Virus record (IMG/VR): IMGVR_UViG_3300014913_000056
Coordinates: 1-28,395 of that record
Source of the DNA: a virus
Direction: 5' to 3' (one strand)
Length of the DNA: 28,395 nucleotides
Notes under the pieces: model-generated
The model's database searches: none
Told to the model about the DNA's origin: nothing
The model's input: only the letters and a program-made list of their open reading frames with translations
Program-made: the position numbers and the translations under genes
In this document: positions 1-28,395 of the stretch, piece by piece
Position numbering within the stretch: the stretch's first letter is position 1
Layout: each line of letters opens with the position of its first letter

Positions 1-1400
1 CTCAATGATAGTGTCAAACCAAAGGCAAGGTCATTATAGTTCCAAGCCTTCAATCTGCTCTTAGCAGGAGTAACGTCAATGTCTTTTGTTATCTCATTAT
101 GTTTGCATTGGAACTTATAGAAGTCTAAATACACATTGAAGTTGTGGGCAGTAGGTAAAGGCTTGCCAGCTTGACTTATATCTACGAACTGAGGATGCTG
201 AGCCTTAACTAACTTGATAAGTGCACCAATAGTTATTGATCGATCAGCGTTGTCTAAGCCAAAGGATTTCCATGTAGCAAACGAAGCTTGTTCGTCGTAC
301 TTATCACCGTGTTTGCTCCACTCATTCCAACAGTAATACCCATCAAGTGACCCCTTGAAATTATCGTGTATGCCCTGACCTATTATCAACCAGGGCTCTC
401 GTGCTTCCTCAGTCTCCTCTGGGTCTAATATGCATATCTCATTGTTCATGAGCCTATCAAAGATGTCAGACGTTAAATTCTGAACAGGTATCTGAGTGAG
501 CAGATGCCGTACTTGTGCTTGGTCGAGTGGCTTCCGCCGTTTCTTCTTTTTCTTTTCTGCTTTAGCAATAGCACGGTCAGCAGCACGGTCCTTAGCAGCC
601 TGCAACTCTTCTTGCGTAGGTATCCTATCCTCTAAGGCAACGATCTTTTGATTAGCGTCGACAAGGGTCTTAGTCTCCTTCTGTTGAGCCTCAGCCTCAG
701 CATGCGCAAAAGGAAGAGACATCTTATTAGACTTGAAGTAGAGGAGTAGCAAGTCTATTATTTCCTCCGTCTCTATTGTACGTATCTGAGCAGGTTGTGT
801 AGGTAAGAGACGACCCGTGACCGTCACATAGCCAGAAGAAATAAACAAGTCTCGTTTCTCAGTTTTATTACGTTTGCCACTACCAAAGCGTTTTATTATC
901 TCTAACTTGTCAGCAATGGTCTTAGCTCTGATGATAATATGATATCCATTGTTAGAGGGTGACCATTCTGTATATGACTCTAAGTCATCCATGAATTTAT
1001 TATTATCCTCAGTAGCGAGGTCTATGTCGATACAGATAAATGGATGTTTAGGAGTATAGGCAAACCCAAATCCAATAGGAGGAGTTCTGTCGTTAGCTTT
1101 ATACTGATCATACTCAGCATAGATTTGTGAAAATAATTTCGTATTATTTTGCCAGTTGGTGGTTGACATCGGTTTTTTAAGAATCTTTGTTACTTGATTC
1201 GGATTAGTCGGTGTTGACTGGTTGTTAGGAGTAGGTACCCATAATAACCAGAAAGGAAAGAAGTCTAAGATTAACTCTTCTGGGAAATTGATTGGTTTAA
1301 CATATGTTAGATCTGATTGTAGTTTAGGTATTTGTAGGTCTGGAATGATGAGAGGATTTTGAGGCGAAGACGGGGAGGAGGTCTGGTCAGTTTTGTTCAT
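1..1400 (-). CDS. PrimPol (AEP/D5-type) DNA primase, N-terminal part, truncated by window edge
   Basis: The frame is open from an ATG at 1400 to the left edge (466 codons seen, C-terminus missing). The archaeo-eukaryotic primase-polymerase motifs are present in order: CIDID (D125, D127) as the metal-binding DxD, SPSNNGYHIII (H154) as the sxH nucleotide-binding motif, and RDLFISSGYVTVTG as the third acidic motif, which fits the family pattern of acidic residue then GRYVTVTG. A Lys/Ala-rich linker (about residues 270-290) follows, then a segment with WLIIGQGIHDN and YYCWNEWSKHGDKYD...WKSF that resembles the PriCT-2 primase C-terminal domain. In this family a D5/SF3-like helicase usually follows, beyond this window. 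The gene should prime phage replication. A GAGG Shine-Dalgarno lies 8 bases upstream. It is transcribed away from the virion genes, from the promoter at 1434-1462. Confidence 0.9.
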   Translation of the reverse strand, partial: MNKTDQTSSPSSPQNPLIIPDLQIPKLQSDLTYVKPINFPEELILDFFPFWLLWVPTPNNQSTPTNPNQVTKILKKPMSTTNWQNNTKLFSQIYAEYDQYKANDRTPPIGFGFAYTPKHPFICIDIDLATEDNNKFMDDLESYTEWSPSNNGYHIIIRAKTIADKLEIIKRFGSGKRNKTEKRDLFISSGYVTVTGRLLPTQPAQIRTIETEEIIDLLLLYFKSNKMSLPFAHAEAEAQQKETKTLVDANQKIVALEDRIPTQEELQAAKDRAADRAIAKAEKKKKKRRKPLDQAQVRHLLTQIPVQNLTSDIFDRLMNNEICILDPEETEEAREPWLIIGQGIHDNFKGSLDGYYCWNEWSKHGDKYDEQASFATWKSFGLDNADRSITIGALIKLVKAQHPQFVDISQAGKPLPTAHNFNVYLDFYKFQCKHNEITKDIDVTPAKSRLKAWNYNDLAFGLTLSL

Positions 1401-1433: not shown

Positions 1434-1462
1434 ATTATAACATATTTTTGAGGAAATGTAAA
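1434..1462 (-). promoter_or_regulatory. Sigma70-type promoter of the primase gene
   Basis: On the minus strand, TTTACA (1462-1457), a 17-base spacer and TATAAT (1439-1434) with an extended -10 TGT directly before it. This is close to consensus. It lies 33 bases upstream of the primase start, with a dyad a further 29 bases upstream. Confidence 0.82.
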
Positions 1463-1490: not shown

Positions 1491-1507
1491 TATACAGAAA
1501 CTGTATA
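1491..1507. promoter_or_regulatory. ATACAG-AAA-CTGTAT operator-like dyad upstream of the primase promoter
   Basis: Perfect inverted repeat TATACAG-AAA-CTGTATA. Its centre (1499) is 37 bp from the first -35 base of the primase promoter, which places it near -72. The same dyad sits at the same distance from the terS promoter (4564-4578). That position suits an upstream activator better than a simple repressor. The binding protein is unknown. Confidence 0.65.
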
Positions 1508-1661
1508 TTATAAAAATTGAATATTGTAAAGTAGGTTAAAACAGTCTAGAGATTCGGGCTCGTTACTCTCCGAAAATTTTTTATAATAAAATCAGATAGT
1601 TAGAGAAAAAATAAGAACGAGCGTATTGTTTCTAACATTTTAACGTTTAACTTTCGCTTCG

Positions 1662-1674
1662 TACACTTTGTGTA
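1662..1674. promoter_or_regulatory. TACAC-N3-GTGTA dyad, left copy 1
   Basis: TACACTTTGTGTA, a perfect 5-bp inverted repeat around three bases. It is the same site as in the array at 3974-4360, here as a lone copy just left of the phased repeats at 1697-1740. It differs from the promoter-linked ATACAG-N3-CTGTAT dyad mainly by a C/G exchange at one position in each arm. Confidence 0.6.
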
Positions 1675-1740: not shown

Positions 1741-1975
1741 CAATTCCCCAGATCTTAAAAAAGTTAAAGTTGACTTTCAAAATCTACTCAATTATACTCT
1801 TATACTCTTATTATATACTAATTTTATCTAATAATATCAACTACTTACTTACTAAAAGAGTGTTAATAAGAATAATAAAAAGAATAAGAATAGGGTTAAG
1901 CAAAACTAGGCCCCACTATTACTTTCTGGATATTGCCGAATCACAGATACTTTTGGCTAAAAAACCCAAAAAATG
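1741..1975. other. AT-rich non-coding tract
   Basis: Mostly A/T sequence with short repeats such as TACTCTTA. A 75-codon frame here has low-complexity, Ile/Leu/Tyr-rich content and no convincing ribosome-binding site, so no gene is called. It could be the DNA-unwinding element that goes with the adjacent phased repeats. Confidence 0.4.
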
Positions 1976-1981
1976 TCCTCG

Positions 1982-1994
1982 TACACTTTGTGTA
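1982..1994. promoter_or_regulatory. TACAC-N3-GTGTA dyad, left copy 2
   Basis: TACACTTTGTGTA, same orientation and flanks (CGTACACTTTGTGTATA) as the copy at 1662-1674. The two copies bracket the phased repeats and the AT-rich tract. Confidence 0.6.
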
Positions 1995-2079: not shown

Positions 2080-2349
2080 TTATGACTCAATAAACTTACG
2101 CCCTTTTGAATCAGTGGCAATTGCGTATCCATCCCGCCTCAAGTATGTAAGCTGAGAAGATACATTTCGTGGTGATATTCCAATGATTGATGCAATATCA
2201 ACGACACTGATCTTCTTTTCCTTAAGGATGTCTAATACTTCGTCTTTACGACCTGGTTTAATTACCTTTTGCTTACTCAGTCGATCTTCTAAACAGACTA
2301 ACTGATTCTCTAACTCTTCTACTTGTGCCAACAGTTCTTTCTTGTCCAT
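2080..2349 (-). CDS. Small winged-HTH DNA-binding protein, copy a (89 aa)
   Basis: An N-terminal leucine-heptad helix (about residues 5-25, with VEELENQLVCLEDRL) suggests dimerisation. A basic linker (KPGRKDE) follows, then a helix-turn-helix: ISVVDIASIIGIS as the first helix and turn, PRNVSSQLTYLRRDGY as the recognition helix, and ATDSKGRKFIE as a likely wing. It differs from the copy at 3425-3694 at only six of 89 residues, all in the first half (2, 4, 8, 9, 18 and 45). It has its own promoter (2420-2448), a hairpin that presents the Shine-Dalgarno (2351-2368) and a terminator. It is probably a transcriptional regulator of this control region; its target sites are not proven. No named family is claimed. 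Confidence 0.85.
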   Translation of the reverse strand: MDKKELLAQVEELENQLVCLEDRLSKQKVIKPGRKDEVLDILKEKKISVVDIASIIGISPRNVSSQLTYLRRDGYAIATDSKGRKFIES

Positions 2350-2350
2350 G

Positions 2351-2368
2351 ATTACACCTCACTGTAAT
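2351..2368 (-). promoter_or_regulatory. Leader hairpin presenting the Shine-Dalgarno of HTH-a
   Basis: In the mRNA, ATTACA pairs with TGTAAT across a 6-base loop GTGAGG that carries the Shine-Dalgarno. The ATG begins one base after the stem. The HTH-b leader has the same structure with compensatory base changes (GATACA/TGTATC). It may allow translational autoregulation, or it may be a DNA dyad bound near the gene start. Confidence 0.55.
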
Positions 2369-2384
2369 TTTGGTTTGTGACGCA

Positions 2385-2403
2385 AGTGATTCAAATAATC
2401 ACT
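2385..2403 (-). other. 5' UTR hairpin of the HTH-a transcript
   Basis: 7-bp stem AGTGATT/AATCACT with a 5-base loop, between the predicted start of transcription (about 2413) and the Shine-Dalgarno hairpin. The HTH-b leader also has an upstream hairpin, of different sequence. Confidence 0.45.
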
Positions 2404-2419
2404 CACTCTCCATACATAT

Positions 2420-2448
2420 ATTATATCATAAATTTTACCAAAAGTAAA
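2420..2448 (-). promoter_or_regulatory. Sigma70-type promoter of the HTH-a gene
   Basis: On the minus strand, TTTACT (2448-2443), a 17-base spacer, then TATAAT (2425-2420) preceded by TGA, an extended -10. It has the same layout as the primase and HTH-b promoters. Confidence 0.8.
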
Positions 2449-2513
2449 CATTAAAATATCCATGGATGAAATTAGCTTTGGACTCTCTTTGGTTATGTCG
2501 GCTCAGTGACTCA

Positions 2514-2544
2514 GGTTCATCTGGCTACTATCATCAGATGAACC
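2514..2544. other. Hairpin overlapping the next terminator stem
   Basis: GGTTCATCTG pairs with CAGATGAACC across an 11-base loop that contains TACTATCATC. Its right arm shares 2541-2544 with the stem of the hairpin at 2541-2572, so the two cannot both form fully. The loop decamer recurs at 2978-2987 and 3021-3030. Confidence 0.5.
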
Positions 2545-2572
2545 CACTAGTATTGTATAATACTAGTGGGTT
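2541..2572 (-). terminator. Bidirectional-looking terminator after the 83-aa gene
   Basis: Perfect 14-bp stem (AACCCACTAGTATT and complement) with a 4-base loop, 5 bases past the stop of the minus-strand gene 2578-2829. The T-rich tail (TTAATTTAT) is on the plus side, and only TTCATCTG follows on the minus side, so termination of the minus transcript may be leaky. Confidence 0.6.
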
Positions 2573-2577
2573 TTAAT

Positions 2578-2829
2578 TTATCTTACAGTCTTTTCTAGTT
2601 TAACTGTAATATCTAAAAGGTCCTCCAGTCCTTCAAAACTAGGATTATCTCCATTCATATAGCCTAGTCTAGCATGCTCCATCAATAAGTCAAAGTGAGG
2701 AAGTAGAGCTAGTCTAGCTAATTCTTTTTCTTCAAGTGTTAAGCTAGGATACTTATCCTCAATTACCTCAGCTAACTCAGCCATTTGTTTACTCATGTAG
2801 ATTAGATGATTCTTTGTTGTTGTAATCAT
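2578..2829 (-). CDS. Small helical protein of unknown function, paralogue of the 81-aa gene (83 aa)
   Basis: I do not recognise the family. The protein looks all-helical. Its second half (ELARLALLPHFDLLMEHARL then GDNPSFEGLEDLLD) aligns with ELIRLSAIPIINELMTIAKA and GRQPNFDSLIDVMND of the 81-aa protein at 3122-3367, so the two are diverged paralogues. I chose the ATG at 2829 because GGAGG lies 9 bases upstream; a longer frame would need a TTG at 2844 that sits inside this Shine-Dalgarno. The gene has its own promoter (2888-2916) and lies between the two HTH genes. It could be an HTH partner or an early host-directed protein; there is no direct evidence for either. Confidence 0.75.
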   Translation of the reverse strand: MITTTKNHLIYMSKQMAELAEVIEDKYPSLTLEEKELARLALLPHFDLLMEHARLGYMNGDNPSFEGLEDLLDITVKLEKTVR

Positions 2830-2855
2830 AATTCTATCCTCCAATGTTAGTTTTT

Positions 2856-2878
2856 AATACCAAAGTTATTTTGATATT
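2856..2878 (-). other. 5' UTR hairpin of the 83-aa gene
   Basis: AATATCAAA and TTTGGTATT (as read in the mRNA) form a 9-bp stem with one G-U pair and a 5-base loop, upstream of the Shine-Dalgarno. Confidence 0.35.
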
Positions 2879-2887
2879 GTATACTTT

Positions 2888-2916
2888 ATTATAATCTATT
2901 TTTCTTCGCATGTAAA
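2888..2916 (-). promoter_or_regulatory. Sigma70-type promoter of the 83-aa gene
   Basis: On the minus strand, TTTACA (2916-2911), a 17-base spacer, TATAAT (2893-2888). The layout matches the other promoters of this region, but without the extended -10 TG. Confidence 0.82.
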
Positions 2917-2966
2917 CATAAATATTTCACCGAGGTAAAATGGTGACTGGATAAATAGTACGAGCT

Positions 2967-3061
2967 CATCCGGCTGCTACTATCATCGGACTTTTGATTA
3001 AATCGCACGGATTCATCCAGTACTATCATCAACCGGATGACTGAAGTATTTACAGTCATCC
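2967..3061. repeat. Cluster of GATGA/TCATC hairpins with repeated TACTATCATC
   Basis: Non-coding DNA between a terminator and the next promoter. It holds CATCCGG (2967-2973) pairing with CCGGATG (3033-3039), a second 9-bp stem GGATGACTG/CAGTCATCC (3035-3043 with 3053-3061), and two copies of TACTATCATC (2978-2987 and 3021-3030). A third copy lies at 2526-2535. A 60-codon minus frame across this stretch is not credible as a gene. The role is unknown; operator sites or a small structured RNA are possible. Confidence 0.5.
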
Positions 3062-3074
3062 AGTATAACAAAGT

Positions 3075-3111
3075 AAAATAAAAGCAGCGCTGTTAACGCT
3101 GCTTTTATTTT
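3075..3111 (-). terminator. Strong bidirectional terminator after the 81-aa gene
   Basis: Perfect 15-bp stem with a 7-base loop. GC core AGCAGCG/CGCTGCT is flanked by A-rich and T-rich arms (AAAATAAA, TTTATTTT), typical of a rho-independent terminator in both directions. It begins 10 bases past the stop of the minus-strand gene 3122-3367. Confidence 0.88.
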
Positions 3112-3121
3112 GCATTACTTT

Positions 3122-3367
3122 TTATACGTCATTCATTACATCTATTAAGCTGTCAAAATTTGGTTGCCTACCTGATAGATACTCAGCTTTCGCAATTGTC
3201 ATTAATTCATTAATTATAGGTATTGCTGATAATCTTATAAGCTCATGATCCCTTTCATGTAACTTATGTCCTGAATCATTTAACTGATTAGCTAATTGAA
3301 GCATATTTGTTCCCATGTTTTCCAACGCATTTTTAATACTTATTGTACGATTTGTTAGCTTTTCCAT
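3122..3367 (-). CDS. Small helical protein of unknown function (81 aa)
   Basis: Helical, no recognised domain. It shares the pattern LxRLxxxP...LM..A...Y..G..P.F..L.D with the 83-aa protein at 2578-2829, so the two are diverged paralogues. It starts at ATG 3367 with GGAGGT 7 bases upstream. It follows the HTH-b gene in the same direction with 57 bases between them and no promoter seen, so the two are probably co-transcribed from the promoter at 3778-3806. Transcription ends at the strong terminator 3075-3111. Confidence 0.78.
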   Translation of the reverse strand: MEKLTNRTISIKNALENMGTNMLQLANQLNDSGHKLHERDHELIRLSAIPIINELMTIAKAEYLSGRQPNFDSLIDVMNDV

Positions 3368-3383
3368 TTTATTACCTCCAGTT

Positions 3384-3415
3384 GTGAGAGAGTCATATTA
3401 CTATGACTCTCTCAC
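3384..3415 (-). other. Intergenic hairpin between HTH-b and the 81-aa gene
   Basis: Perfect 14-bp stem GTGAGAGAGTCATA/TATGACTCTCTCAC with a 4-base loop and no T-run on either side. It lies just upstream of the Shine-Dalgarno of the 81-aa gene. It may be an RNA stability or processing element that tunes the ratio of the two proteins, or a weak attenuator. Confidence 0.6.
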
Positions 3416-3424
3416 ATCAGTTGT

Positions 3425-3694
3425 TTATGATTCGATGAATTTACGTCCCTTAGAATCAGTTGCTATTGCATATCCGTCTCGTCTAAGATATGTCAGTTGA
3501 GATGATACATTTCGTGGGGATATTCCAATGATTGATGCAATATCAACGACACTGATCTTCCCTTCCTTTAGTATGTCCAACACTTCATCTTTTCTTCCTG
3601 GCTTAATTACCTTCTGCTTACTCAGTCGATCTTCTAAACAGATTAACTGATTCTCTAATTCTTCTACACATTTCAACAGTTCTTCTTTATTCAT
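3425..3694 (-). CDS. Small winged-HTH DNA-binding protein, copy b (89 aa)
   Basis: Same architecture as the protein at 2080-2349: N-terminal leucine-heptad helix, basic linker, then a helix-turn-helix (IASIIGISPRNVSSQLTYLR) and a wing; 83 of 89 residues are identical. I chose ATG 3694 because it aligns with the start of copy a and follows GAGGTG; the longer frame would need a GTG at 3706 inside the Shine-Dalgarno hairpin. At DNA level the last quarter of the gene carries many synonymous differences from copy a, while the middle (about 3500-3560) is almost identical. That suggests purifying selection with local gene conversion. It is first in an operon with the 81-aa gene. Likely a regulator; target unproven. 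Confidence 0.85.
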   Translation of the reverse strand: MNKEELLKCVEELENQLICLEDRLSKQKVIKPGRKDEVLDILKEGKISVVDIASIIGISPRNVSSQLTYLRRDGYAIATDSKGRKFIES

Positions 3695-3713
3695 GATACA
3701 CCTCACTTGTATC
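3695..3713 (-). promoter_or_regulatory. Leader hairpin presenting the Shine-Dalgarno of HTH-b
   Basis: In the mRNA, GATACA pairs with TGTATC across a 7-base loop AGTGAGG, and the ATG follows the stem directly. Against the HTH-a leader (ATTACA/TGTAAT), the two outer pairs are changed on both sides, so pairing is kept while sequence differs. Confidence 0.55.
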
Positions 3714-3716
3714 TTG

Positions 3717-3753
3717 TTTTATATTTAATAACTACATGTCATTAAATATAAAA
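3717..3753 (-). other. 5' UTR stem-loop of the HTH-b operon
   Basis: Perfect 13-bp arms TTTTATATTTAAT/ATTAAATATAAAA with an 11-base loop, between the predicted transcription start (about 3771) and the Shine-Dalgarno hairpin. All pairs are A-T, so stability is modest. Confidence 0.5.
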
Positions 3754-3777
3754 CGTTTTTAATTTTGAATAAAATTA

Positions 3778-3806
3778 ATTATAACATAAATTTTTTATTT
3801 TGTAAA
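3778..3806 (-). promoter_or_regulatory. Sigma70-type promoter of the HTH-b operon
   Basis: On the minus strand, TTTACA (3806-3801), a 17-base spacer, then TATAAT (3783-3778) with an extended -10 TGT. Its elements are the same as those of the primase promoter. Confidence 0.82.
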
Positions 3807-3973
3807 CGATTATTTTTATTTTTATTATAAATACATGATTTTATTATAAAAATTTATAAAATAATTAATCCCTGTATCCCAGGTAGGGTTGGGATTTGAA
3901 TTTTCAAAATTTTTTCTATATAAAGGGGGTATGGTGGCTTAAAATATATGAATTGGCGTATATAATCAAGCAA
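3807..3973. other. Non-coding stretch left of the repeat array
   Basis: AT-rich, with an AATCCC (3867-3872)/GGGATT (3891-3896) inverted repeat around a smaller CCC/GGG pair, and TTGGCG (3953-3958) facing CGCCAA in the first array unit. I see no gene, no tRNA cloverleaf and no convincing promoter. Confidence 0.35.
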
Positions 3974-4360
3974 TTCGCCAAAATTTTTTTCCCCCTTAAA
4001 CTCAAAATATACACAAAGTGTAAATACCTTATTTCGACCGAAATTTTTTCCCTTCATTTTAAGAATATACACAAAGTGTAAATACCTTATTTCGACCGAA
4101 ATATTTAAGCAGTTCGCCAAAATTTTTTTCCCTTCATTTTAAGAATATACACAAAGTGTAAATACCTTATTTCGACCGAAATATTTAACCGTTTCGACCG
4201 AATTTTTTTCCCTTCATTTTAAGAATATACACAAAGTGTATTTACCACTATATTATTTTGTTTCAAGCATTTCGACTGAAATTTTTCCCCTTAAACTCAA
4301 AATATACACAAAGTGTAATTTATTTTTCCCCACTTAAACTCAAAATATACACTTTGTGTA
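3974..4360 (+). repeat. Array of six composite repeats carrying two kinds of dyad
   Basis: Each unit runs: a TTTCGACCGAAA-type dyad or its variant (TTCGCCAA), an A/T-to-C run (AAATTTTTTTCCC), a spacer, AATATACAC-AAA-GTGTA, then AATACCTTA. The TACAC-AAA-GTGTA dyads are at 4010, 4068, 4148, 4228 and 4305; a sixth at 4348 is inverted. Start-to-start distances are 58, 80, 80, 77 and 43 bp. Frames crossing the array on both strands are artefacts of the repeats. Candidates are replication iterons, a multi-operator control region, a partition site or the packaging (pac) site, given terS next door. Confidence 0.8.
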
Positions 4361-4370
4361 AATTGATTCT

Positions 4371-4483
4371 CTAACACTATAAATCCCAATTTCTATATTA
4401 TTCTAATACTATAAATCCCACTCTCTATAGTATTCTAATACTGTAAATCCCAATTTCTATATTATTCTAATACTGTAAGTCCT
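4371..4483 (+). repeat. 32-bp tandem repeat, about 3.5 copies
   Basis: CTAAYACTRTAAATCCC begins at 4371, 4403, 4435 and 4467 (last copy diverged), so the period is exactly 32 bp. The repeat tails read AATTTCTATATTATT or a close variant. It directly follows the composite array. Function unknown. Confidence 0.75.
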
Positions 4484-4563
4484 ATGACTTCTATCAAATC
4501 CTCCAGGGGCTACTTATCCAGATCCATATTATATCATTTAATATAGGGCCAGAATATCAGAAA

Positions 4564-4578
4564 ATACAGTTTCTGTAT
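4564..4578. promoter_or_regulatory. ATACAG-TTT-CTGTAT operator-like dyad upstream of the terS promoter
   Basis: Perfect inverted repeat, the same site as at 1491-1507. Its centre (4571) lies 37 bp before the first -35 base of the terS promoter, the same distance as on the primase side. Confidence 0.65.
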
Positions 4579-4581
4579 TAT

Positions 4582-4596
4582 ATACACATTCTGTAT
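4582..4596. promoter_or_regulatory. Imperfect second dyad ATACAC-ATT-CTGTAT
   Basis: One mismatch from a perfect dyad. Centred 18 bp downstream of the first dyad, between it and the -35. It is a hybrid of the two dyad families (ATACAC left arm, CTGTAT right arm). No equivalent is seen on the primase side. Confidence 0.4.
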
Positions 4597-4607: not shown

Positions 4608-4636
4608 CTTACAAAACACGAAAAACATGCTCTAAT
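4608..4636 (+). promoter_or_regulatory. Probable promoter of the virion gene operon
   Basis: CTTACA (4608-4613), a 17-base spacer, TCTAAT (4631-4636) with TGC before it (extended -10). It is weaker than the primase promoter but follows the same pattern, and would suit dependence on an activator at the dyad 29 bases upstream. TATAAT at 4642-4647 is an alternative -10 but lacks a suitable -35. Confidence 0.55.
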
Positions 4637-4671: not shown

Positions 4672-5172
4672 ATGCTGGACATAGCACTCCTAAAATTACA
4701 GTACGAGATTCTGAATAAGACACCGAGTGAACTCTCCGCTGATTGTGGGATGCCTGAAGAAGCCATCCTAGATACCATTAAAGAAAAAGGGTGGAAACAA
4801 TGGTGGCCCTCAGGTATTGATGACGAGATCCTAGCCAAAAGTACTGAGAACATCGAGGAACAAGATGAGCTCCTAGTACTACAATCTGAACAATTCCTGG
4901 ATCGAGCGAAACGGCGTCTCGCAGTGTATACCATCGCCAAAGAGATTCATCTCGCTCAAAAATATCTCAAGCTAGAGTCTGCTATTATCGATAAGGCTTA
5001 CACTTTAATTAATGACTTGTCTGGGCTTGACACTAAGAGCATTAAAGACTTGTCAACCTTGTATAAAGACATGACTGCTAAGTCTCCTACTTCTGCCTTA
5101 GCTGCCTTCTCATTCTGTGAAGATGAGGGAGGACTACCGAGTGTCATTATACGAGACCTTTCTGGTCGCTAA
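4672..5172 (+). CDS. Terminase small subunit (putative)
   Basis: 166 aa, first gene of the plus-strand virion operon and only 3 bases upstream of terL, the usual place for the small terminase subunit. The N-terminal part (ILNKTPSELSADCGMPEEAI) looks like a helix-turn-helix, the DNA-recognition part of TerS proteins. The rest is predicted to be helical (about residues 65-140), as in the oligomerising core. TerS would bind the phage packaging site and deliver DNA to TerL. The start has only a weak AGGGAA Shine-Dalgarno. The call rests mainly on position, size and the HTH-like segment. Confidence 0.75.
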   Translation: MLDIALLKLQYEILNKTPSELSADCGMPEEAILDTIKEKGWKQWWPSGIDDEILAKSTENIEEQDELLVLQSEQFLDRAKRRLAVYTIAKEIHLAQKYLKLESAIIDKAYTLINDLSGLDTKSIKDLSTLYKDMTAKSPTSALAAFSFCEDEGGLPSVIIRDLSGR

Positions 5173-12338: not shown

Positions 12339-12995
12339 ATGCCGACACTTGAAACATTAAGAGAAAATGTAGTAGACGCTATTCAAGACACTTCTATAGA
12401 GGATGACTTCATAGACGCTAAGTTTAATGAGGCCCTTGAACTTTGTGCTGATTACGTCCTTTTGCCAGAACTAGAGTCGTCTGGAACATTTACAACTGCT
12501 ACAGACACTCATAGTGTTGTCATACCAACTTCTTGGAATTATCACCGGGGCCTCTATAGTGCTTATGCTCCTGACACTGAGCTTATTGATGTTGTATCTT
12601 CTTTGAGGCTTTTAAAGAATGATTATCCTGACATTGATAACACAGATATAATGTCTGGTAATATTTGTATTGTAACAACTGGTAGTGGTTCAATTTATTA
12701 TTATTTAAGTCCTGAAACTGAGACAATAGTGACTTGTGGTTTTTATCAGCATCCAACACCCTTAACAGAGGACTCTCATATTCCTTCTTGTTTACCAGCA
12801 TCTATGCAAAATGAGTTACTTGAAAATTATGCACTATGGAAATGTTGGAAAATAATAGAAGATGGGATTGAGGGACCAAAGATTAATACTGCCCATCATA
12901 GAACAGCTTTTAACACTGCACTTGCAGAGTTAGATGATCTTATACATGAAGGTCAGTCTACTCCAAATCCAAAACGTGGATCAGGGTGGATCTAA
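12339..12995 (+). CDS. Putative head-to-tail adaptor protein (218 aa)
   Basis: Begins with MPTLETLRENVVDAIQDTSI and a helix FIDAKFNEALELCADYVLLP, then a beta-rich middle (SGTFTTATDTHSVVIPTSW) and a C-terminal helical part (MQNELLENYALWKCWKIIED and FNTALAELDDLIHEG). This order of helix, beta insert and helices, and the place just before a P22 gp10-like gene, resemble podoviral adaptors of the P22 gp4 or SU10 adaptor kind that close the portal after packaging. The similarity is by pattern, not by search. Confidence 0.7.
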   Translation: MPTLETLRENVVDAIQDTSIEDDFIDAKFNEALELCADYVLLPELESSGTFTTATDTHSVVIPTSWNYHRGLYSAYAPDTELIDVVSSLRLLKNDYPDIDNTDIMSGNICIVTTGSGSIYYYLSPETETIVTCGFYQHPTPLTEDSHIPSCLPASMQNELLENYALWKCWKIIEDGIEGPKINTAHHRTAFNTALAELDDLIHEGQSTPNPKRGSGWI

Positions 12996-17725: not shown

Positions 17726-19935
17726 CCTGGGTAAAAACAGATATTAGTGGACAAACTTTTTGCTGTTATAAAGCAAAAATTTTATCTATGATATTTGCTT
17801 TATCCACAAGCCCTGTACCTCCTGATGGAGCTTCAGCTCCTGCTGTTATAGTTGAATGGCTTGGAGAAAAGCCAGAAGACTCAGATGATGAACAGTGGAT
17901 TGACCAGATAGTTTATGACTGTGGTTGGTATTATACAAAAGTTGAAGCTTTAAATTTACCTGCCTTACCTAATAATGCATGGATGGCTTTTTGTGTAGAC
18001 GATGAAGTTATAATTTTAGAAACGTCAGATGGATTATTTTTAGCTGGCCATGATGATACTTCTGAGTTTAATGAAGATGAATCTATTGTAACTCCTGTCT
18101 ATTGTTTAAATGAAAATTATATTACTGTACCTGGCCTCTCAACTAGTTATAGCTTAGTCATATATGAGCACTATGATATTCCCTCGGAGATACTTTATAA
18201 ATATATACGACGAATTTACTTAGGTAGTAAAAGTACTCAAGCTGATACCGGAAGCTTTTATATTTCAGATAACTATGTTCTTTACAGATACCAAGGGGCT
18301 ACTTATTTTAAAAGTGACATAATTAGTTATCCTGAGAAGTCTGTTATAACTACTAGACTTAACTATGACCTTATCTCAAAATGCCCAAGAAAATGGTATA
18401 GATCATCTGATTATTTCTATGATCTAAACGATTCAGGAACTTTACAAAGAAGTAGAATTTATTATCCTATTAATCTTTCTTATACTTTACCTGAGTATAC
18501 TATTAATCCTAGAAATAGAGTTACTGAAGAAATTCATTTTCAAACAACAGCACCTTTTAGAATAACTGATGGAGGTACTTCAGATACTCTATGCCAACGT
18601 AAAGTGTTTACTCCAGAATACGATGCTGATGGTATACTAGATAACTATAGTATTGACTCATATGTAGATGTAGATCATTCATGTGAGGGAGAGTCAAGTA
18701 TTTCTAAAAGTATACTGCAGGAAGTAGAATCTTTTGATCTTGGTTTTAGTGGTATTTATTACGTTATAACTAAAAGAGAATGTCATTCAGAATTTACATC
18801 TATACGAGAAAATATAGGTACTTTATTAACTGATGGAGTAAACTCAGTTACTTATAATAAAACACAATCAGTTTCACTTATCATGGAACAAAATAGCTCA
18901 TGTGATGCAGAATTATATTATCCTCCTACAGGTGGAGTAACTATAAAAATTGAAAATATAGTTAATGAGTACTCTTACGAATCAACCTTTAGGGATCTTG
19001 AAGAAATTTATTATAAAGGTGTTAAACTAGGTGAAAATAAATTAGACGTAGATGTTACTTATGCTTTAGATTTTACTAACTCATTTAATTTAACTTGGAC
19101 TAAAAATGTAGTTAGTTCTATAGAAACAATATTTGTTCCTGCACATATAGACTTATTTGAAGACTTAATTATATTTACTATATACTCAATAGAAGCAACT
19201 GATGAAACTTATGATGAAAATAACCCAGAAAGTGAAGATGTTCATGATCGTCTACTTACTCTAGAAGTTACTATTTCTGTAAAAATGTATTACAAAGGTA
19301 CAATAACACTATTAAAAGAAGAAACCCTAGATCTTGAAAGTCCTACACTAACTACTTTTTCAGCAAGACCCGATGGAAGAGGTCCAGGGACGCTTTATGC
19401 TATGGCTCATGATGAGTATGATTTATATGGTAAGTGTGATTGGGGTGATGTTCTTGATAATGTAACTATATATCCTTTATACTTATCTGGTTTTCCTTTA
19501 TATGAATCAGGAGTTGCAGCTAAAACTCCACCAGCTGGTTTTCCAGATTACTATGACAATATAGATGAAGACGAAGAATACGATTCAACTAATGTAGTGT
19601 ATGACTTACATCAAACTTTTATGGATAGATTCCAGAGACCTAATCCTTTTACTACTCCTGATTCTTATATAAATAACTCACGTGATTTTATTTCAGGTTT
19701 TGGTCATGGTAATCAATTTGTTCTTCTAGGATTTTGGTATTTAAGTTTCTTACCTAAAATAACTGCAACTTATCCCACAACTAGTACACATGGAGATATA
19801 CTTTGGTTTAGAGTTTCAGCTTCAGATAGCTTATTTGAAAACTTAGATATTTTATTACACAATGGTGAAATAGTTACTGACACGTTTGATCCAAATGGCA
19901 TGACTGATAATTTTATACTTTTAAGTCAAACATAG
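17713..19935 (+). CDS. Large beta-rich tail-region protein of unknown function (740 aa)
   Basis: Overlaps the previous gene by 13 bases; GGTGAGAG just upstream serves as a weak Shine-Dalgarno. It is acidic, Tyr- and Asp-rich and predicted mainly beta throughout, without coiled coil or membrane segments. It has scattered Cys (for example CCYK, QIVYDCGW and DVDHSCEGE). It could be a tail fibre, spike or hub protein, but no receptor-binding or enzyme motif is recognisable. Codons are notably A/T-ending compared with the capsid gene, as in other genes of this half. Confidence 0.72.
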   Translation: MDFLAWVKTDISGQTFCCYKAKILSMIFALSTSPVPPDGASAPAVIVEWLGEKPEDSDDEQWIDQIVYDCGWYYTKVEALNLPALPNNAWMAFCVDDEVIILETSDGLFLAGHDDTSEFNEDESIVTPVYCLNENYITVPGLSTSYSLVIYEHYDIPSEILYKYIRRIYLGSKSTQADTGSFYISDNYVLYRYQGATYFKSDIISYPEKSVITTRLNYDLISKCPRKWYRSSDYFYDLNDSGTLQRSRIYYPINLSYTLPEYTINPRNRVTEEIHFQTTAPFRITDGGTSDTLCQRKVFTPEYDADGILDNYSIDSYVDVDHSCEGESSISKSILQEVESFDLGFSGIYYVITKRECHSEFTSIRENIGTLLTDGVNSVTYNKTQSVSLIMEQNSSCDAELYYPPTGGVTIKIENIVNEYSYESTFRDLEEIYYKGVKLGENKLDVDVTYALDFTNSFNLTWTKNVVSSIETIFVPAHIDLFEDLIIFTIYSIEATDETYDENNPESEDVHDRLLTLEVTISVKMYYKGTITLLKEETLDLESPTLTTFSARPDGRGPGTLYAMAHDEYDLYGKCDWGDVLDNVTIYPLYLSGFPLYESGVAAKTPPAGFPDYYDNIDEDEEYDSTNVVYDLHQTFMDRFQRPNPFTTPDSYINNSRDFISGFGHGNQFVLLGFWYLSFLPKITATYPTTSTHGDILWFRVSASDSLFENLDILLHNGEIVTDTFDPNGMTDNFILLSQT

Positions 19936-22581: not shown

Positions 22582-25500
22582 ATGCCGAAACTAGCTGACT
22601 TGTCATATGAAGAATTAGTTGCTGAACGAGACAGGCGGAAAAATATTGTAAATCCTGTTGCCGATGTTCAGCATCAAGTTCAACCAGGGCTCATTCCTTC
22701 TGAACCTGCTACTGATATACCTGAGACTTCAACAGTAAGACGTTTTCTTGGGGACACTGGTATATCAGCTTTAAAAGGAGCTATAGGAGTACCTGAAGCT
22801 GCTATTGGTTTAGCTAATATTCCTACTATGGGTTTAGCTGGTAAGGCTGCAGAAAGCCTAGGAATAAACTTTAAAGAGTCTAAAGAGATTTTAGATGACT
22901 TATATTCACCTGCTCAGAAAGAAGCCAATCGTCGAGTAGCTGAAGCTAAAGGTTTTACTGGTACGCTCACAGCTGCTTTAAAGAATCCTAGTACTATAGC
23001 TCATGCTGCAATTGAAGCGTTACCTCTTATGGGAGCAGGTGGTGTTGTAGGTAAAGGAGCTTTAGCAGCAACTACTAAGCTTGGAAAGTACGTACCTACA
23101 ATAGGTAAGATGGTTGCAAAGAATCCTATTACTGCTAAGTTAGCCGCAAGTGCGATAGGTGAAGGTTCAGCTAGCGCAGGTAGTATGGCTGAAGATATAC
23201 GCCAACAAAATAAGTCAGGTAGAATTGATCTTAAAGAAGGCCTCATGTCGTTAGCTGCTGGTGTAGGTACTTCAGTATTCAATCTTGCAGGTGGTAGACT
23301 AGCTCAGAAGTTAGGTATTGCTGACGTAGATACTCTTCTGGTTGGAGGGACTTTAAAAGAGGTCGCTGAGGGAGCTGCAGAAAAAACATCAAAAGGTGTA
23401 GCCAGGAGAATTGTTGAAGGTGGTATATCTGAAGGTGTTTTTGAAGAGCTTCCACAAACTCTTCAAGAAACTATATGGATGAATGCCGCCACCGAAAAGC
23501 CTTTATCAGAGGGCCTTGGAGAAGCCGCTGCTATGAGTATATTAGTTGGTGGTGCTATGGGTGGTGTTGTTAATGTTACAGGAGGTAATCAAGATACTAC
23601 TCCTCCACCAGCTAATTCTTTAGTAAAACTCCGTAATGCTAATTTAACAGACAAACAGCTTGATGCTATTTCAGCTAATCCTGAAGTACTTGCTGATTAC
23701 GATCTTGAAAAATCAGACATTGACACTTTGCGTATTGAGCGTTCACTAGAAGAGCATGAACAAGTTCAGTTTCATGCTATGCTTGAGTCTGCTCCAAATG
23801 CTTCTGTTAAACAAGGTATCCTTGAGTCTCTTCAAGGTGAAGTTTATTTACGTAGGAAAAGTCAAGCAGATGAAAGAGCTGCAAAAGCTGAGAAAGAAGT
23901 TATTAACACAAAAGAGTTTACTAGTGTAGCACAATCCCCTGAAGCTGTTAAAGTTTTAGCAGACGCTTATATGGTAGAACCTGTAGAATTACCAGATGAG
24001 TCAGTAGCAGGTCTAAATACTTATGCTGAAGAAATCAAGAAAGGGACAGTCGATGTAAAAGCAGACACCATCGCTACTTTAGAGAATCTTGACGCCTCAT
24101 TAAAAAACCTTGCTAAAGCTGAATCACCACAAGCTAAGCAGTTAGCTCAAACAGCTGTTCAAATCAATAAGAATCAATTAATTCTTCTTGATCCTGAGCT
24201 TGATAATCGTGTTAAAGATCGTCGCGTTAAAGATGTCGCAGTCGAGAATGAACAGCGTAAAGCTGAACGTCGAGAAGCTGCTGGTTTGTCAATTAACAAG
24301 CGTGTTAAAGAAATGACTCCTGAAGAACAAGAGTCAGAATTACTAACAACTTCATTAACTAAGATGCCAAGTAAGAGAGCTTATGAGGAATCTGTACTTG
24401 ATGATATTGATAACGACAAAAGTCCTCTTACAGTATTTGTAGACGTTGATAGCTTAGCTTATGTTAATGATGAGCTTGGTGGTCATGAATCTGGTAACAA
24501 ATTATTAAAAGCTGTTGGAAAGATTATACATAAAGTTGGAGGAGATAAGAGTTTCCATATCAGTGGTGATGAATTCCTTATGAAGGCTGATACCATTGAA
24601 GAAGCTGAAGCTTTAATGACTCAAGTTAATGACGCACTAGCAGGAACTGAGCTTGATTTTAAACTTGAGAATGGAAAAACTTTTAAGTATACAGGTCCTG
24701 GAGTGAGTTATGGAATAGCTGAGACTCGACAGGAAGCTGACGCTAAAATGTCTGAGAATAAAGCTGCAAGACTTGATCAAAAACTAAGAGTTGGAAGGAA
24801 AGAAAAACCTCATGGTGTCTCTGAAGTAATACCTGCTAAAGAAGCTACAAGACAAAAAGCTAATCTTTCAAAATTAGCTAAGCGTTTACCAATAAGTAAT
24901 GCTTTAGGTCGAACAGCTTCAAAAGATGTGGTTAAAAATAAAAAAGTACTAATCCCCAAAGGTACAGTGTTAAACTCAGAACATGTTAACACTCTCGCAG
25001 AAGCTGGATATAAAAGTGTTCCTCTTGAGCCTAAGAAAGCTAAGGTACAAGGGGCTAAAGCAAAACAAAAAGCTAAAGTCACTAAGCTAGTAAGAAACCT
25101 TAGGGAGAAAGAACTTGATGCCCTCGCTGAGTGGTTACCTGCTGGCATGGAAGATGTTATCGAAACTGTCAGGAAGGAAGAAAAACACTTAACTGAACAT
25201 CCTGAAAATCTAAAATCCTTTTTAGTTGGTGTCGCTGAGAAACGAGGTCTCAAGGTTGATAAATCTAAACCAAAGGTAGAAATAAAAGACACTACTAGAC
25301 GTACTAAAAGGGTCAGTAAGAAAACTAAAACGATTATAGCCAAGGGTAAGAAAGCAGATCAAGTTAAAAAGAAAACCTTACGTAAGGTTCTGACGAGGTC
25401 TCCTTTAAGCAAACAGATCGGTAAAACTCTTACATCAGACGTAGCTAATCCTAAAACAGGAACAATATTATTTAAAGCTGGAGATACTCTTACACCTCAG

Positions 25501-28395
25501 AAAGCTACTACTCTTATTAATCTTGGAGTTACTGATATAGCAATTAAACCTCCGCCTAAGACAGTTAGACAAGCCAAGAAGAAAGTTGCTAAGACTACAA
25601 AGAAAACTACCAAGACTAAAAAAGCTGTTACAAAAGCTCAGGAAAAAGGTATAGACCTTAAGGGGGCTTTTGATACAAATGAAGCTATAAAAGAAGTAAT
25701 GACTGATGTATTTAATAGTGACAACGCAGCTACTCAAGACTTATCAAAAGACACGGCAAATCTCGAAGAACTTGAGATAACAGAAGCTGTGAATGAAGAT
25801 AACGCAAAAAGTAGTGTCGCTTCGGAGCTTCAGGCAGTCAAAAGGAAAACAGCTAAGAAAGGCACTAAAAAGAAGAAAAAGGAGCCTAAAAAGCGATCTA
25901 AGGCCGAATTAGATGCTCTAAATGATGAATTGTTACTATATAATAAAGCAGACGGAATCAACTACGAAGAAAATGTTGAAGACCTTCCTCAAGATGCCAT
26001 AGATGCCTTATCTGATGAAGATGAGCCTTCAGAGCTCATATTTGCTAGAGGCGATACGATTAAAAGTATTCAAGATATTAAAGGTCTCTATTGGAAAGGT
26101 CAAGTTTACTTAGTTAAAAATAATATTGACTCTGCTGACGAAGTCAAAGGCCTTGTGGCACATGAAGTAGGTCATTTCTTACGTAGACATGATTCATGGT
26201 TTCAGCGTAATTACCAAGACCTATATAACCAATTTCTTGAAATAGCTGAAGGTAGCCGATCTAACGTAGAAGCTGCGGCAGCAAGAAGGTCTATAGTAAA
26301 AGCCTTAGCCACAGGAGAACATAAGTCTGCTGACTTGATTCAGGAAGAAGCTTTTATGTACTTTATCCAGGACCAAGCTAATTCTAAATACAGCCTAGTT
26401 CAAGAGCTCATTGATCTAGTAAGACGATGGGTCTTTAAAGCTTTTAAGAAGTCAGCGAAACAATTGAATTTCTCTGGTCGTGACATGGCTGACATGGCGG
26501 TCAATGACTTTATGACAAAAAGTAAGAAAGCCCGTAATATAAACCCTTTAGGTGATGTAGTTCCTTTGGCAGCTAGATCTGAGAATTTCTTTTATCCTGC
26601 TGTTAGTCAGCTTAAAGCTATGGGACTTCCTAAGAAAGGTACAGCTAAAGAACGACTTGCTTTTATCCAGAAAGGTTTAAAGAAAGGATTAATCAATAAG
26701 ACTGAAGTTGAATTCTCAGGTCTTATGACTGAGTTAGAAGTTGCTGTAAAAAATAATCCTGATGTTAATGTACCTGCAAATGAGGTTTTTAAATATCTAC
26801 AAGATAATAAATTTGAATTTTCACATATTATACCTACTTTAGCTGAAGCTAGTGATCTAACTAACTATGAGAATCTTGTACCTATGATAGAAGCTCAGTT
26901 TAATGACTCCTATGATACTCTTATAGAATATGAAATGATGTTTTTTAACATGGCTTTCGATGACTCAAACCCTTTATCTAAAGCTGCTAAAGCCTTTGAT
27001 CAAGCTTGGGATGATAATTTACATAATGACTCAATATCTGATGAAATAAAAAACACAGAGCAAGTTTTAGCTAGGCTAGCTGCTAAATATTGGAAAGAGC
27101 ATTTAGGTATTACAAGAGATATCTTAATGGCTTTACCACCTGAAGTAAGAACATCAGTTATCAACGGTCATAGAGGTAACGTTGAAATTAACGGTACTGT
27201 GTATCCTATTAAAGTATCGAATGACCATGCTGAAAAGTATAAGTCTTTTATGGAAGTTGAAGTCGACGATTATATAACAACCCATCCTGATCTTGACTCT
27301 GAAACAATTGCACGTGAAGGACGGTATAGCACTATGAAGTTACCTGGGGCTATAGAAAATTCATACACTGAACAAGTTATTACTTACAATGATCCTATTA
27401 ATACTTACTCAGGACTTGGATTTGCTCATTGGAAGACAAATGATATACTAAGTCATTTTCGATCTGCTGCTTATGACTCTGATAAGGGCAAAGTATACAT
27501 GATTCTAGAAGCTCAATCTGATAGGGTTACTGACCTTAGAATTCAATCTGAAACTTCTAGAAGATTCTTAGACGATAATATGGAGGTTCCTGAGCTTTTA
27601 TTCGATGCTCCTCTATCAAGAAGTCCTTTTGAAAAATCGTGGTCTACTTTTACTTTTTACAATGCGTTAAATGACGCGATTATAAAAGAGCACAGCTATA
27701 TAACTTGGCCAGCAAATAAAGATACTGTGGGCTATATTGAAAACTGGCCTGCTAAGACAAGTCATTCTAGCATCGTTAAAATATATACTGATAAGTTTGT
27801 AAGACTAGCAAAGCGCTTAGCTAAGGAATATAACTCTGAGGTAGGTACTCTTAAACTCAAGGGAACTACAGCTAAAATTGGTGAAGTTAATTATCTCAAA
27901 ATAACTCCAGAGCTTAAAGAAGCTTTTACAAAAGATATTCCGTTACCTTCTAAGAAAGATCCTGTGGCTCAACCAATTGCACAAGTCGCCAAAGAGTCTG
28001 ACGAAGCTCGTAAGTTAATGGAAGATATATTCGGAAGTAAAGAAACACCTGAACAAGCGTCTCATACCTTTATGAGAGATATTGCTGCAAAGGTAGCTAC
28101 TTCACATCCTTCCGACTTTGGTAAAAAGTTCGCCAAGTTAACCTCAGATATACTTAATGGAACAGAAGATACACCAGCTAACTTTAGACGTGGACAACAC
28201 GAACAAACTGCAAACTGGTATGACCGTATTGCTAGTTCCCCAGAGTACTATTTCACTAAAGATGCAACAGCAGCTAGAGTTCTATATCATGCTCAGGAAG
28301 CTAACGATAAACAGTTTGCTTGGGAACATAGAATACTCGATAACTTTTTAGACACCGTAGATAAAATTAAATCCAAGAACAGACCTGCATATAAC
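22582..28395 (+). CDS. Giant polyvalent virion protein with GGDEF-like and zinc-peptidase-like domains (partial)
   Basis: Open from ATG 22582 through the right edge (1938 codons seen, no stop). Residues ~1-340 hold Gly/Ala-rich amphipathic helices and EGVFEELPQTLQET, a pattern known from phage polyvalent and internal virion proteins that enter the host. Residues ~585-740 form a GGDEF-type domain: SLTKMPSKRAYEE, VFVDVDSLAYVND (D621, N629, D630), ISGDEF (661-665) and GVSYGIA. Residues ~769-817 and ~939-990 repeat one beta motif (GKTLTSDV...GTILFKAGDTL). Lys-rich linkers follow. H1194-H1198 (HEVGH) with E1255/E1256 suggests a gluzincin-like peptidase. Residues ~1590-1760 (HWKTNDILSHFR, LEAQSD, PFEKSW) match a polyvalent-protein-associated domain. 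It is probably injected with DNA; this is inference. Confidence 0.88.
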   Translation, partial: MPKLADLSYEELVAERDRRKNIVNPVADVQHQVQPGLIPSEPATDIPETSTVRRFLGDTGISALKGAIGVPEAAIGLANIPTMGLAGKAAESLGINFKESKEILDDLYSPAQKEANRRVAEAKGFTGTLTAALKNPSTIAHAAIEALPLMGAGGVVGKGALAATTKLGKYVPTIGKMVAKNPITAKLAASAIGEGSASAGSMAEDIRQQNKSGRIDLKEGLMSLAAGVGTSVFNLAGGRLAQKLGIADVDTLLVGGTLKEVAEGAAEKTSKGVARRIVEGGISEGVFEELPQTLQETIWMNAATEKPLSEGLGEAAAMSILVGGAMGGVVNVTGGNQDTTPPPANSLVKLRNANLTDKQLDAISANPEVLADYDLEKSDIDTLRIERSLEEHEQVQFHAMLESAPNASVKQGILESLQGEVYLRRKSQADERAAKAEKEVINTKEFTSVAQSPEAVKVLADAYMVEPVELPDESVAGLNTYAEEIKKGTVDVKADTIATLENLDASLKNLAKAESPQAKQLAQTAVQINKNQLILLDPELDNRVKDRRVKDVAVENEQRKAERREAAGLSINKRVKEMTPEEQESELLTTSLTKMPSKRAYEESVLDDIDNDKSPLTVFVDVDSLAYVNDELGGHESGNKLLKAVGKIIHKVGGDKSFHISGDEFLMKADTIEEAEALMTQVNDALAGTELDFKLENGKTFKYTGPGVSYGIAETRQEADAKMSENKAARLDQKLRVGRKEKPHGVSEVIPAKEATRQKANLSKLAKRLPISNALGRTASKDVVKNKKVLIPKGTVLNSEHVNTLAEAGYKSVPLEPKKAKVQGAKAKQKAKVTKLVRNLREKELDALAEWLPAGMEDVIETVRKEEKHLTEHPENLKSFLVGVAEKRGLKVDKSKPKVEIKDTTRRTKRVSKKTKTIIAKGKKADQVKKKTLRKVLTRSPLSKQIGKTLTSDVANPKTGTILFKAGDTLTPQKATTLINLGVTDIAIKPPPKTVRQAKKKVAKTTKKTTKTKKAVTKAQEKGIDLKGAFDTNEAIKEVMTDVFNSDNAATQDLSKDTANLEELEITEAVNEDNAKSSVASELQAVKRKTAKKGTKKKKKEPKKRSKAELDALNDELLLYNKADGINYEENVEDLPQDAIDALSDEDEPSELIFARGDTIKSIQDIKGLYWKGQVYLVKNNIDSADEVKGLVAHEVGHFLRRHDSWFQRNYQDLYNQFLEIAEGSRSNVEAAAARRSIVKALATGEHKSADLIQEEAFMYFIQDQANSKYSLVQELIDLVRRWVFKAFKKSAKQLNFSGRDMADMAVNDFMTKSKKARNINPLGDVVPLAARSENFFYPAVSQLKAMGLPKKGTAKERLAFIQKGLKKGLINKTEVEFSGLMTELEVAVKNNPDVNVPANEVFKYLQDNKFEFSHIIPTLAEASDLTNYENLVPMIEAQFNDSYDTLIEYEMMFFNMAFDDSNPLSKAAKAFDQAWDDNLHNDSISDEIKNTEQVLARLAAKYWKEHLGITRDILMALPPEVRTSVINGHRGNVEINGTVYPIKVSNDHAEKYKSFMEVEVDDYITTHPDLDSETIAREGRYSTMKLPGAIENSYTEQVITYNDPINTYSGLGFAHWKTNDILSHFRSAAYDSDKGKVYMILEAQSDRVTDLRIQSETSRRFLDDNMEVPELLFDAPLSRSPFEKSWSTFTFYNALNDAIIKEHSYITWPANKDTVGYIENWPAKTSHSSIVKIYTDKFVRLAKRLAKEYNSEVGTLKLKGTTAKIGEVNYLKITPELKEAFTKDIPLPSKKDPVAQPIAQVAKESDEARKLMEDIFGSKETPEQASHTFMRDIAAKVATSHPSDFGKKFAKLTSDILNGTEDTPANFRRGQHEQTANWYDRIASSPEYYFTKDATAARVLYHAQEANDKQFAWEHRILDNFLDTVDKIKSKNRPAYN

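Follow-up and report, generated by a model that had tools for sequence, protein, structure and literature searches.

A composite dyad array between the divergent early and late genes of an uncultivated podovirus and its relatives: a candidate multi-site operator

In phage lambda, pseudo-palindromic operators form two clusters, OL and OR, about 2.3 kb apart that are connected by CI looping (PMC5880393). The stoperators of mycobacteriophages are asymmetric sites dispersed between genes and bound by one phage-encoded regulator (PMC9283540). Repeated sites are also found in lambda ori, where sites for the O dimer are accompanied by A tracks (PMC7466680), and in lambda cosB, which holds three TerS sites and an IHF site; N15 has one (PMC4669245). 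Here we describe an array of dyads from an uncultivated virus. Such an array keeps its place among related phages while its letters change, a pattern that suggests a DNA control switch with several sites and not a random repeat.

The analysed stretch of DNA, referred to as the window, is an entire IMG/VR virus record of 28,395 bases. It is probably a fragment of an uncultivated podovirus genome, since the record breaks off within a primase gene on the left and within the gene of a giant protein on the right. The minus strand encodes this primase (PriCT_2, 3..1400, cut by the record edge), a winged-helix protein of 89 aa counted from the ATG, with a coiled coil and a wHTH domain (3425..3694), and a second winged-helix paralogue that is 93% identical to the first (2080..2349). 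Gene calls in the window added two related small helical proteins. On the plus strand terS (4672..5172) is the first gene of the late operon and is followed by genes for terL, a P22-type portal and a capsid protein. The array is located in the divergent gap that separates the early from the late genes. A cassette of a winged-helix gene and a small helical protein appears to be duplicated at 2080-3706, with the paralogue pairs 2080-2349/3425-3694 and 2578-2844/3122-3367. The open-ended giant protein at 22582-28395 has at least 1938 aa and a GGDEF-like segment, reminiscent of polyvalent phage proteins. Rfam gave no matches within the window.

The array spans 3974..4360, has no assigned strand and contains six 17-bp pseudo-palindromes. 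Their TACAC-(AAA/TTT)-GTGTA cores start at 4010, 4068, 4148, 4228, 4305 and 4348, with the spacings of 58, 80, 80, 77 and 43 bp given in the first-pass annotation, and the two lone dyads that it had listed were found as well, as exact copies on the primase side (1662..1674 and 1982..1994, both on the minus strand). Together these are the eight exact copies of TACACNNNGTGTA (TACAC-N3-GTGTA) in the window, compared to 0.06 expected; none of 100 shuffles reached eight. The natural unit is the longer pseudo-palindrome TATACAC-AAA-GTGTATA. Most of the six dyads are preceded by TTTCGACCGAAA or TTCGCCAAAA plus a T-then-C run. The element TTTCGACCGAAA is itself a dyad, TTTCG-AC-CGAAA, with copies at 4032, 4090, 4170, 4192 and 4270 (range 4032..4281), the last two carrying one mismatch each, and TTCGCC variants near 3974 and 4113. 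With at most two mismatches it was found 10 times in the window against 1.5 expected; three of these matches duplicate others on the opposite strand, which leaves seven distinct places, five of them inside the array.

Contrary to the earlier description, the two dyads are not combined in every unit: unit 6 lacks the TTTCG element, and two of these elements are present in each of units 3 and 4. The inverted unit that had been reported is a misreading: unit 6 shares the orientation of its left flank, CACTTAAACTCAAAATA, with units 1 and 5, and the sole change is a switch of the central triplet from AAA to TTT. A relative, L052, is likewise centre-flipped, with near-identical left flanks around TTT at 972 and 1031 but AAA at 1113. 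Such flips would be compatible with strand-switching at a palindrome or with the indifference of a symmetric binder. The paired dyads of the window may be due to two proteins, a possibility suggested by the two dyad classes at many loci of the wider set described below. The array is flanked on the left by a GC-rich element, AAAGGGGGTATGGTGGC (3922..3938), which relatives retain at the equivalent place, with the winged-helix gene on one side and the array on the other, and which may be cosN-like. Three 32-bp direct repeats (4370..4482) lie in the interval between the array and terS.

Related copies outside the array had been overlooked. A perfect dyad with variant arms, TATACAGAAACTGTATA, is located 5' of the primase promoter (1491..1507), and two degenerate dyads, AATACAGTTTCTGTATT at 4563 and GATACAGAATGTGTATA (minus strand) at 4580, occupy 4563..4596 immediately 5' of the terS promoter. 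A 17-bp profile (consensus TATACACAAAGTGTATA) was trained on terS-upstream regions including those of relatives; with such a training set, sites upstream of terS are in part bound to be found again, which does not apply to matches elsewhere. Scanning whole records at 13.5 bits gave 10 matches in the window, 9 in G010 and 6 in G016, with 0.3 expected in each from first-order shuffles (0-0.4 expected per record overall). Beyond the terS gap the matches were mostly intergenic and near the primase and early genes. The G010 sites at 18845 and 23967 overlap with a ribosome-binding site plus start codon (TATACACTTTTAGAAAGGAGAAATATG), and in G013 the same is seen at 12850 and 17645. Between both lone exact dyads of the window, at 1690-1740, there are tandem CATTTATAGGT repeats.

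The genes on both sides of the gap are preceded by sigma70-like promoters. In the window these are TTTACA-17-TATAAT for winged-helix gene 1 (3778..3806, minus) and for the primase (1434..1462, minus), and a TGn-extended CTTACA-17-TCTAAT for terS (4608..4636, plus); the second winged-helix gene also has a sigma70-like promoter. At most loci terS has TTTAC(A/T)-16/17-TATAAT upstream, which is of the strong sigma70 type. A dyad ends up 4-11 bp 5' of the terS -35 element in L001-L003 and in the window. Distances between sites and -35 elements are variable, and most sites of the window are hundreds of bases away from any -35. The leader of winged-helix gene 1 contains a 17-bp inverted repeat (3716-3754).

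An IHF-type site, ATAATAAAATCAGATAGTTA, with an A/T stretch 5' of it, matches the consensus WATCARNNNNTTR (1583..1602, plus), and a variant, TAATAATATCAACTACTTA, is present at 1829..1847 (plus); both are situated between lone dyads. The 19-mer TAATAAAATCA(A/G)NNNNTTA, which we take to be a match to the IHF consensus, occurs in the gaps around the winged-helix gene at many loci, including those of distant relatives, and IHF would be predicted to bind there. The window also carries CTATCATC motifs at 2528, 2980 and 3023. In L058, L005, L007 and L059 this motif recurs on one strand, in the gap between the winged-helix gene and the primase, and one copy lies within a clear stem-loop, GGTTCATCT-GGCTACTATCATC-AGATGAACC. 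A role of these hairpins as a priming element was considered and dropped as insufficiently specific.

Searches with TerL and TerS yielded a clade in which TerS is 26-51% identical to that of the window. The 13-mer, allowing one mismatch, was present in 11 of the 21 clade records searched, and after conversion of coordinates its places lie 5' of terS. The exact dyad occurs at one place in G010 (62,969 bases, circular-looking, with a terminal repeat of about 127 bp that is consistent with circular assembly) and at two in G013 (54,677 bases), in each case upstream of terS. Its orientation relative to terS varies among the phages, and all 27 copies with exact arms have AAA or TTT in the centre. 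Mixed orientation and the AAA/TTT centre are what one would expect of a dimer site and not of a directional element. Where the 13-mer is missing, other repeats are found at the same spot: TATACTAAAAGAGTATA three times in L059, ATCTTTTTAATAAG-type repeats in L055, CATACTTTGTAAGTA six times in L007 and CATACTATGTAAGTA-type repeats four times in L005. The TerS of L055 is the closest (51%) yet its dyad differs, and L071, with a TerS that is only 26% identical, retains TTACACAAAGTGTAA. The refuting condition of the first-pass annotation, an array that is absent or shuffled in relatives, thus had a mixed outcome: an array is present at the same place, but its sequence, copy number and orientation differ.

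Every relative with sufficient sequence has a winged-helix gene beside terS with dyads in the gap; the gene adjoins the gap in G000 (two copies), G001, G003, G004, G005, G006, G009/G010, G011, G016 and L060. More distant TerL relatives (about 50%) have a different TerS family and no array. A DNA search in named phages gave no useful match, neither the winged-helix protein nor TerS matched any isolate phage significantly, and a scan of genome contigs with TerS gave no relatives. In L061 (1-640, an end of G013) a 130-base, 98.5% identical copy of the 3' region of its own terL is fused to the array in inverted orientation, either an assembly chimera or a genuine rearrangement.

Scanning with a winged-helix alignment gave 35 loci. 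In most of these a TerS homologue is divergent from the winged-helix gene (the two are co-directional in L103 and L111) and TerL is often without detectable relation to that of the window. Distant phages, many with an unrelated TerL, have an array at the same position composed of other dyads. In 14 whole records ATGAAT-N3-ATTCAT, a dyad similar in geometry to that of the window, was found at 30 places, counting each palindrome once, and 28 of these lie 5' of the winged-helix gene (coordinates converted); one of the others is within the predicted 5' end of that gene (L098) and one is downstream (G029). Many loci have two dyad classes, such as GAATCGGATTC with GGGATGGATCCC in L089 and TTGCACAAAATTTGTGCAA with ATGAAT dyads in L119. 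In L091, L095 and L116 a CTAC(A/T)TTGTGGTA dyad abuts the TTTACA (-35) of the winged-helix promoter, and the winged-helix leader of L095 carries CACCACAAAGTGGTG. L114 has ten tandem dyads, mostly with an 18-bp period. L115, whose TerL is unrelated, combines a TTTACAT-ATC-ATGTAAA array close to terS with a lone TTTACAC-TTT-GTGTACA on the primase side. A further motif, TGGCAC-N5-(C/T)TGCA, lies 5' of the winged-helix gene in L089, L092, L098 and L104; it resembles a sigma54 -24/-12 promoter, and a sigma70 reading is possible too.

AlphaFold modeled the winged-helix protein with a pLDDT of 92 (seven sequences). In Foldseek the model was nearest to MarR/ArsR/SmtB repressors with a probability of 1.0 at a best E-value of only 0.006, and the HTH_5 match of the sequence was barely above the cut-off. 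We lean towards this adjacent protein as the binder of the dyads. Other candidates are a second winged-helix protein (e.g., G010 26721-27260), TerS, whose structure model was of low confidence (pLDDT 69) and had no convincing PDB match, and the primase-helicase. Because many phages have two dyad classes, any assignment of a protein to a dyad is tentative, and because site class tracks lineage, co-variation of winged-helix protein and site is inseparable from shared ancestry.

The first-pass annotation had listed an iteron origin, a partition centromere, a superoperator and a pac site as options for the array. The superoperator fits best, the origin is a serious rival, packaging is weakened and partition is disfavoured. 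The preference for a superoperator is due to the presence of the same sites near the terS promoter and, in the window, also towards the primase at a distance of about 2-2.7 kb, and of related dyads at winged-helix and early-gene promoters of relatives. Near-identical dyads are thus found at more than one phage promoter, counting the array, the primase side and other intergenic copies. Also in favour of an operator are the location where early and late genes part, the indifference of the sites to orientation and a neighbour that resembles repressors; against it, G010 has a single exact dyad. On these grounds we judge the chances evenly balanced that the array serves the divergent early and late promoters as an operator with multiple sites, comparable to lambda OL/OR. 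A small dimeric winged-helix protein, most likely from the divergent gene 0.3 kb to the left, would bind each 17-bp pseudo-palindrome by contacting a pair of TATACAC half-sites spaced by roughly one helical turn, and the A-tract centre would be recognized by its shape. The six sites would be occupied cooperatively and jointly with the lone sites 2-2.7 kb away, with IHF bending the DNA on the primase side. The outcome would be control of the early (winged-helix, primase) and late (terS) sigma70 promoters. The sequences themselves show the sites, their conserved position, the dispersed extra copies, the promoter motifs and the conserved adjacent gene with its predicted fold; binding and regulation by the winged-helix protein, be it repression or activation, IHF binding, cooperativity and looping are inferences.

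A replication origin is the main rival, and we consider it possible, if unlikely. The dyads would be iterons beside meltable AT-rich DNA with IHF bending, as in lambda ori, and the initiator would be the winged-helix protein or the PriCT/VapE-like primase-helicase. The array region has 27% GC, so AT-rich DNA does adjoin the iteron-like dyads, a feature that is unspecific. Tandem dyads such as the ten of L114, A-tract centres like those of the lambda O iterons, the IHF-type 19-mers in the gaps and the adjacent primase would all suit an origin. The GC-skew minimum at 4.5 kb would suit it too, but it is confounded by the coinciding divergence of transcription. The sites are not confined to a putative origin; copies at the primase side, in early-gene leaders and at promoters are unexpected for iterons alone, and a helicase-loading domain was not recognized in the winged-helix protein of only 89 aa.

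A packaging function ranks next and is improbable. The element at 3922-3938 would be cosN and the dyads would correspond to the R sites of lambda cosB, bound by TerS and accompanied by bends; alternatively, the array itself would be pac. The order of GC-rich element, array and terS is conserved, and a variable number of sites has precedent in the cosB regions of lambda and N15. Matching dyads are, however, also found far from terS (1491, 1662 and 1982 in the window; 18845 and 23967 in G010), and similarity of TerS and identity of the dyad are uncoupled in L055 and L071. Where TerL is unrelated and the dyads are of the ATGAAT type, the array stays close to the winged-helix gene. Contigs end at varying places near terS, and the ends examined do not coincide with the GC-rich element.

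A partition centromere of a phage-plasmid is very unlikely: tandem dyads next to a small DNA-binding protein would agree with it, but ParA (AAA_31) was found in none of nine records, including those of 55-63 kb, whereas the control was positive in 14 of 14. Hardly any credence can be given to each dyad being a hairpin promoter for an N4-like virion RNA polymerase, an idea prompted by AATACCT after the hairpin, which resembles N4 promoters in their printed form: a 5-bp stem, a loop of three purines and giant proteins in relatives agree with N4, but the polymerase recognizes -11A/G, -10G, -8G and +1C (PMC4496689), the printed form of N4 promoters gives the template strand 3'->5', the window dyads have A at -10 and -8 in place of the required G, stems are imperfect in L005 and L007, orientation is mixed, late promoters are sigma70-like, and phmmer found no homologue of this polymerase in relatives (the window record being incomplete).

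More broadly, the succession of primase, winged-helix gene, dyad array and terS could be a control module that is widespread among uncultivated podoviruses whose terminases are unrelated. Position and dyad geometry would be fixed, and the letters would diversify rapidly and define immunity or incompatibility groups, possibly with operator, origin and packaging start united in one IHF-assembled complex; this is speculative and rather doubtful. An odd repeat hereby becomes a testable regulatory module common to many uncultivated phages. The many natural dyad variants, each with its own winged-helix gene, would allow one to study how a small winged-helix protein changes jointly with its DNA site, and could tell whether one hub switches early and late phage genes.

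Compared to known systems, the locus shares with lambda cosB a set of multiple sites that lies between terS and a GC-rich element, with IHF-type sites elsewhere in the region, but its sites are palindromic, some are far from terS, and its TerS belongs to another family. Repeated dimer sites, an A-track and AT-rich DNA alongside are features in common with lambda ori; in contrast, the array is intergenic instead of lying within an initiator gene, copies are dispersed at promoters, and a lambda O homologue was not identified. The neighbouring protein has the predicted fold of ArsR/SmtB/MarR repressors, although its sequence match to them is weak. With stoperators the locus has in common a candidate single phage regulator with dispersed intergenic sites, but unlike the asymmetric stoperators its sites are palindromes that cluster in a single place. 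It differs from lambda OL/OR in having six plus three sites, a composite structure with a second dyad, a location beside terS and primase, putative looping and a winged-helix candidate instead of a lambda-repressor fold. Like OL/OR, it has pseudo-palindromic sites in two clusters, here separated by 2-2.7 kb.
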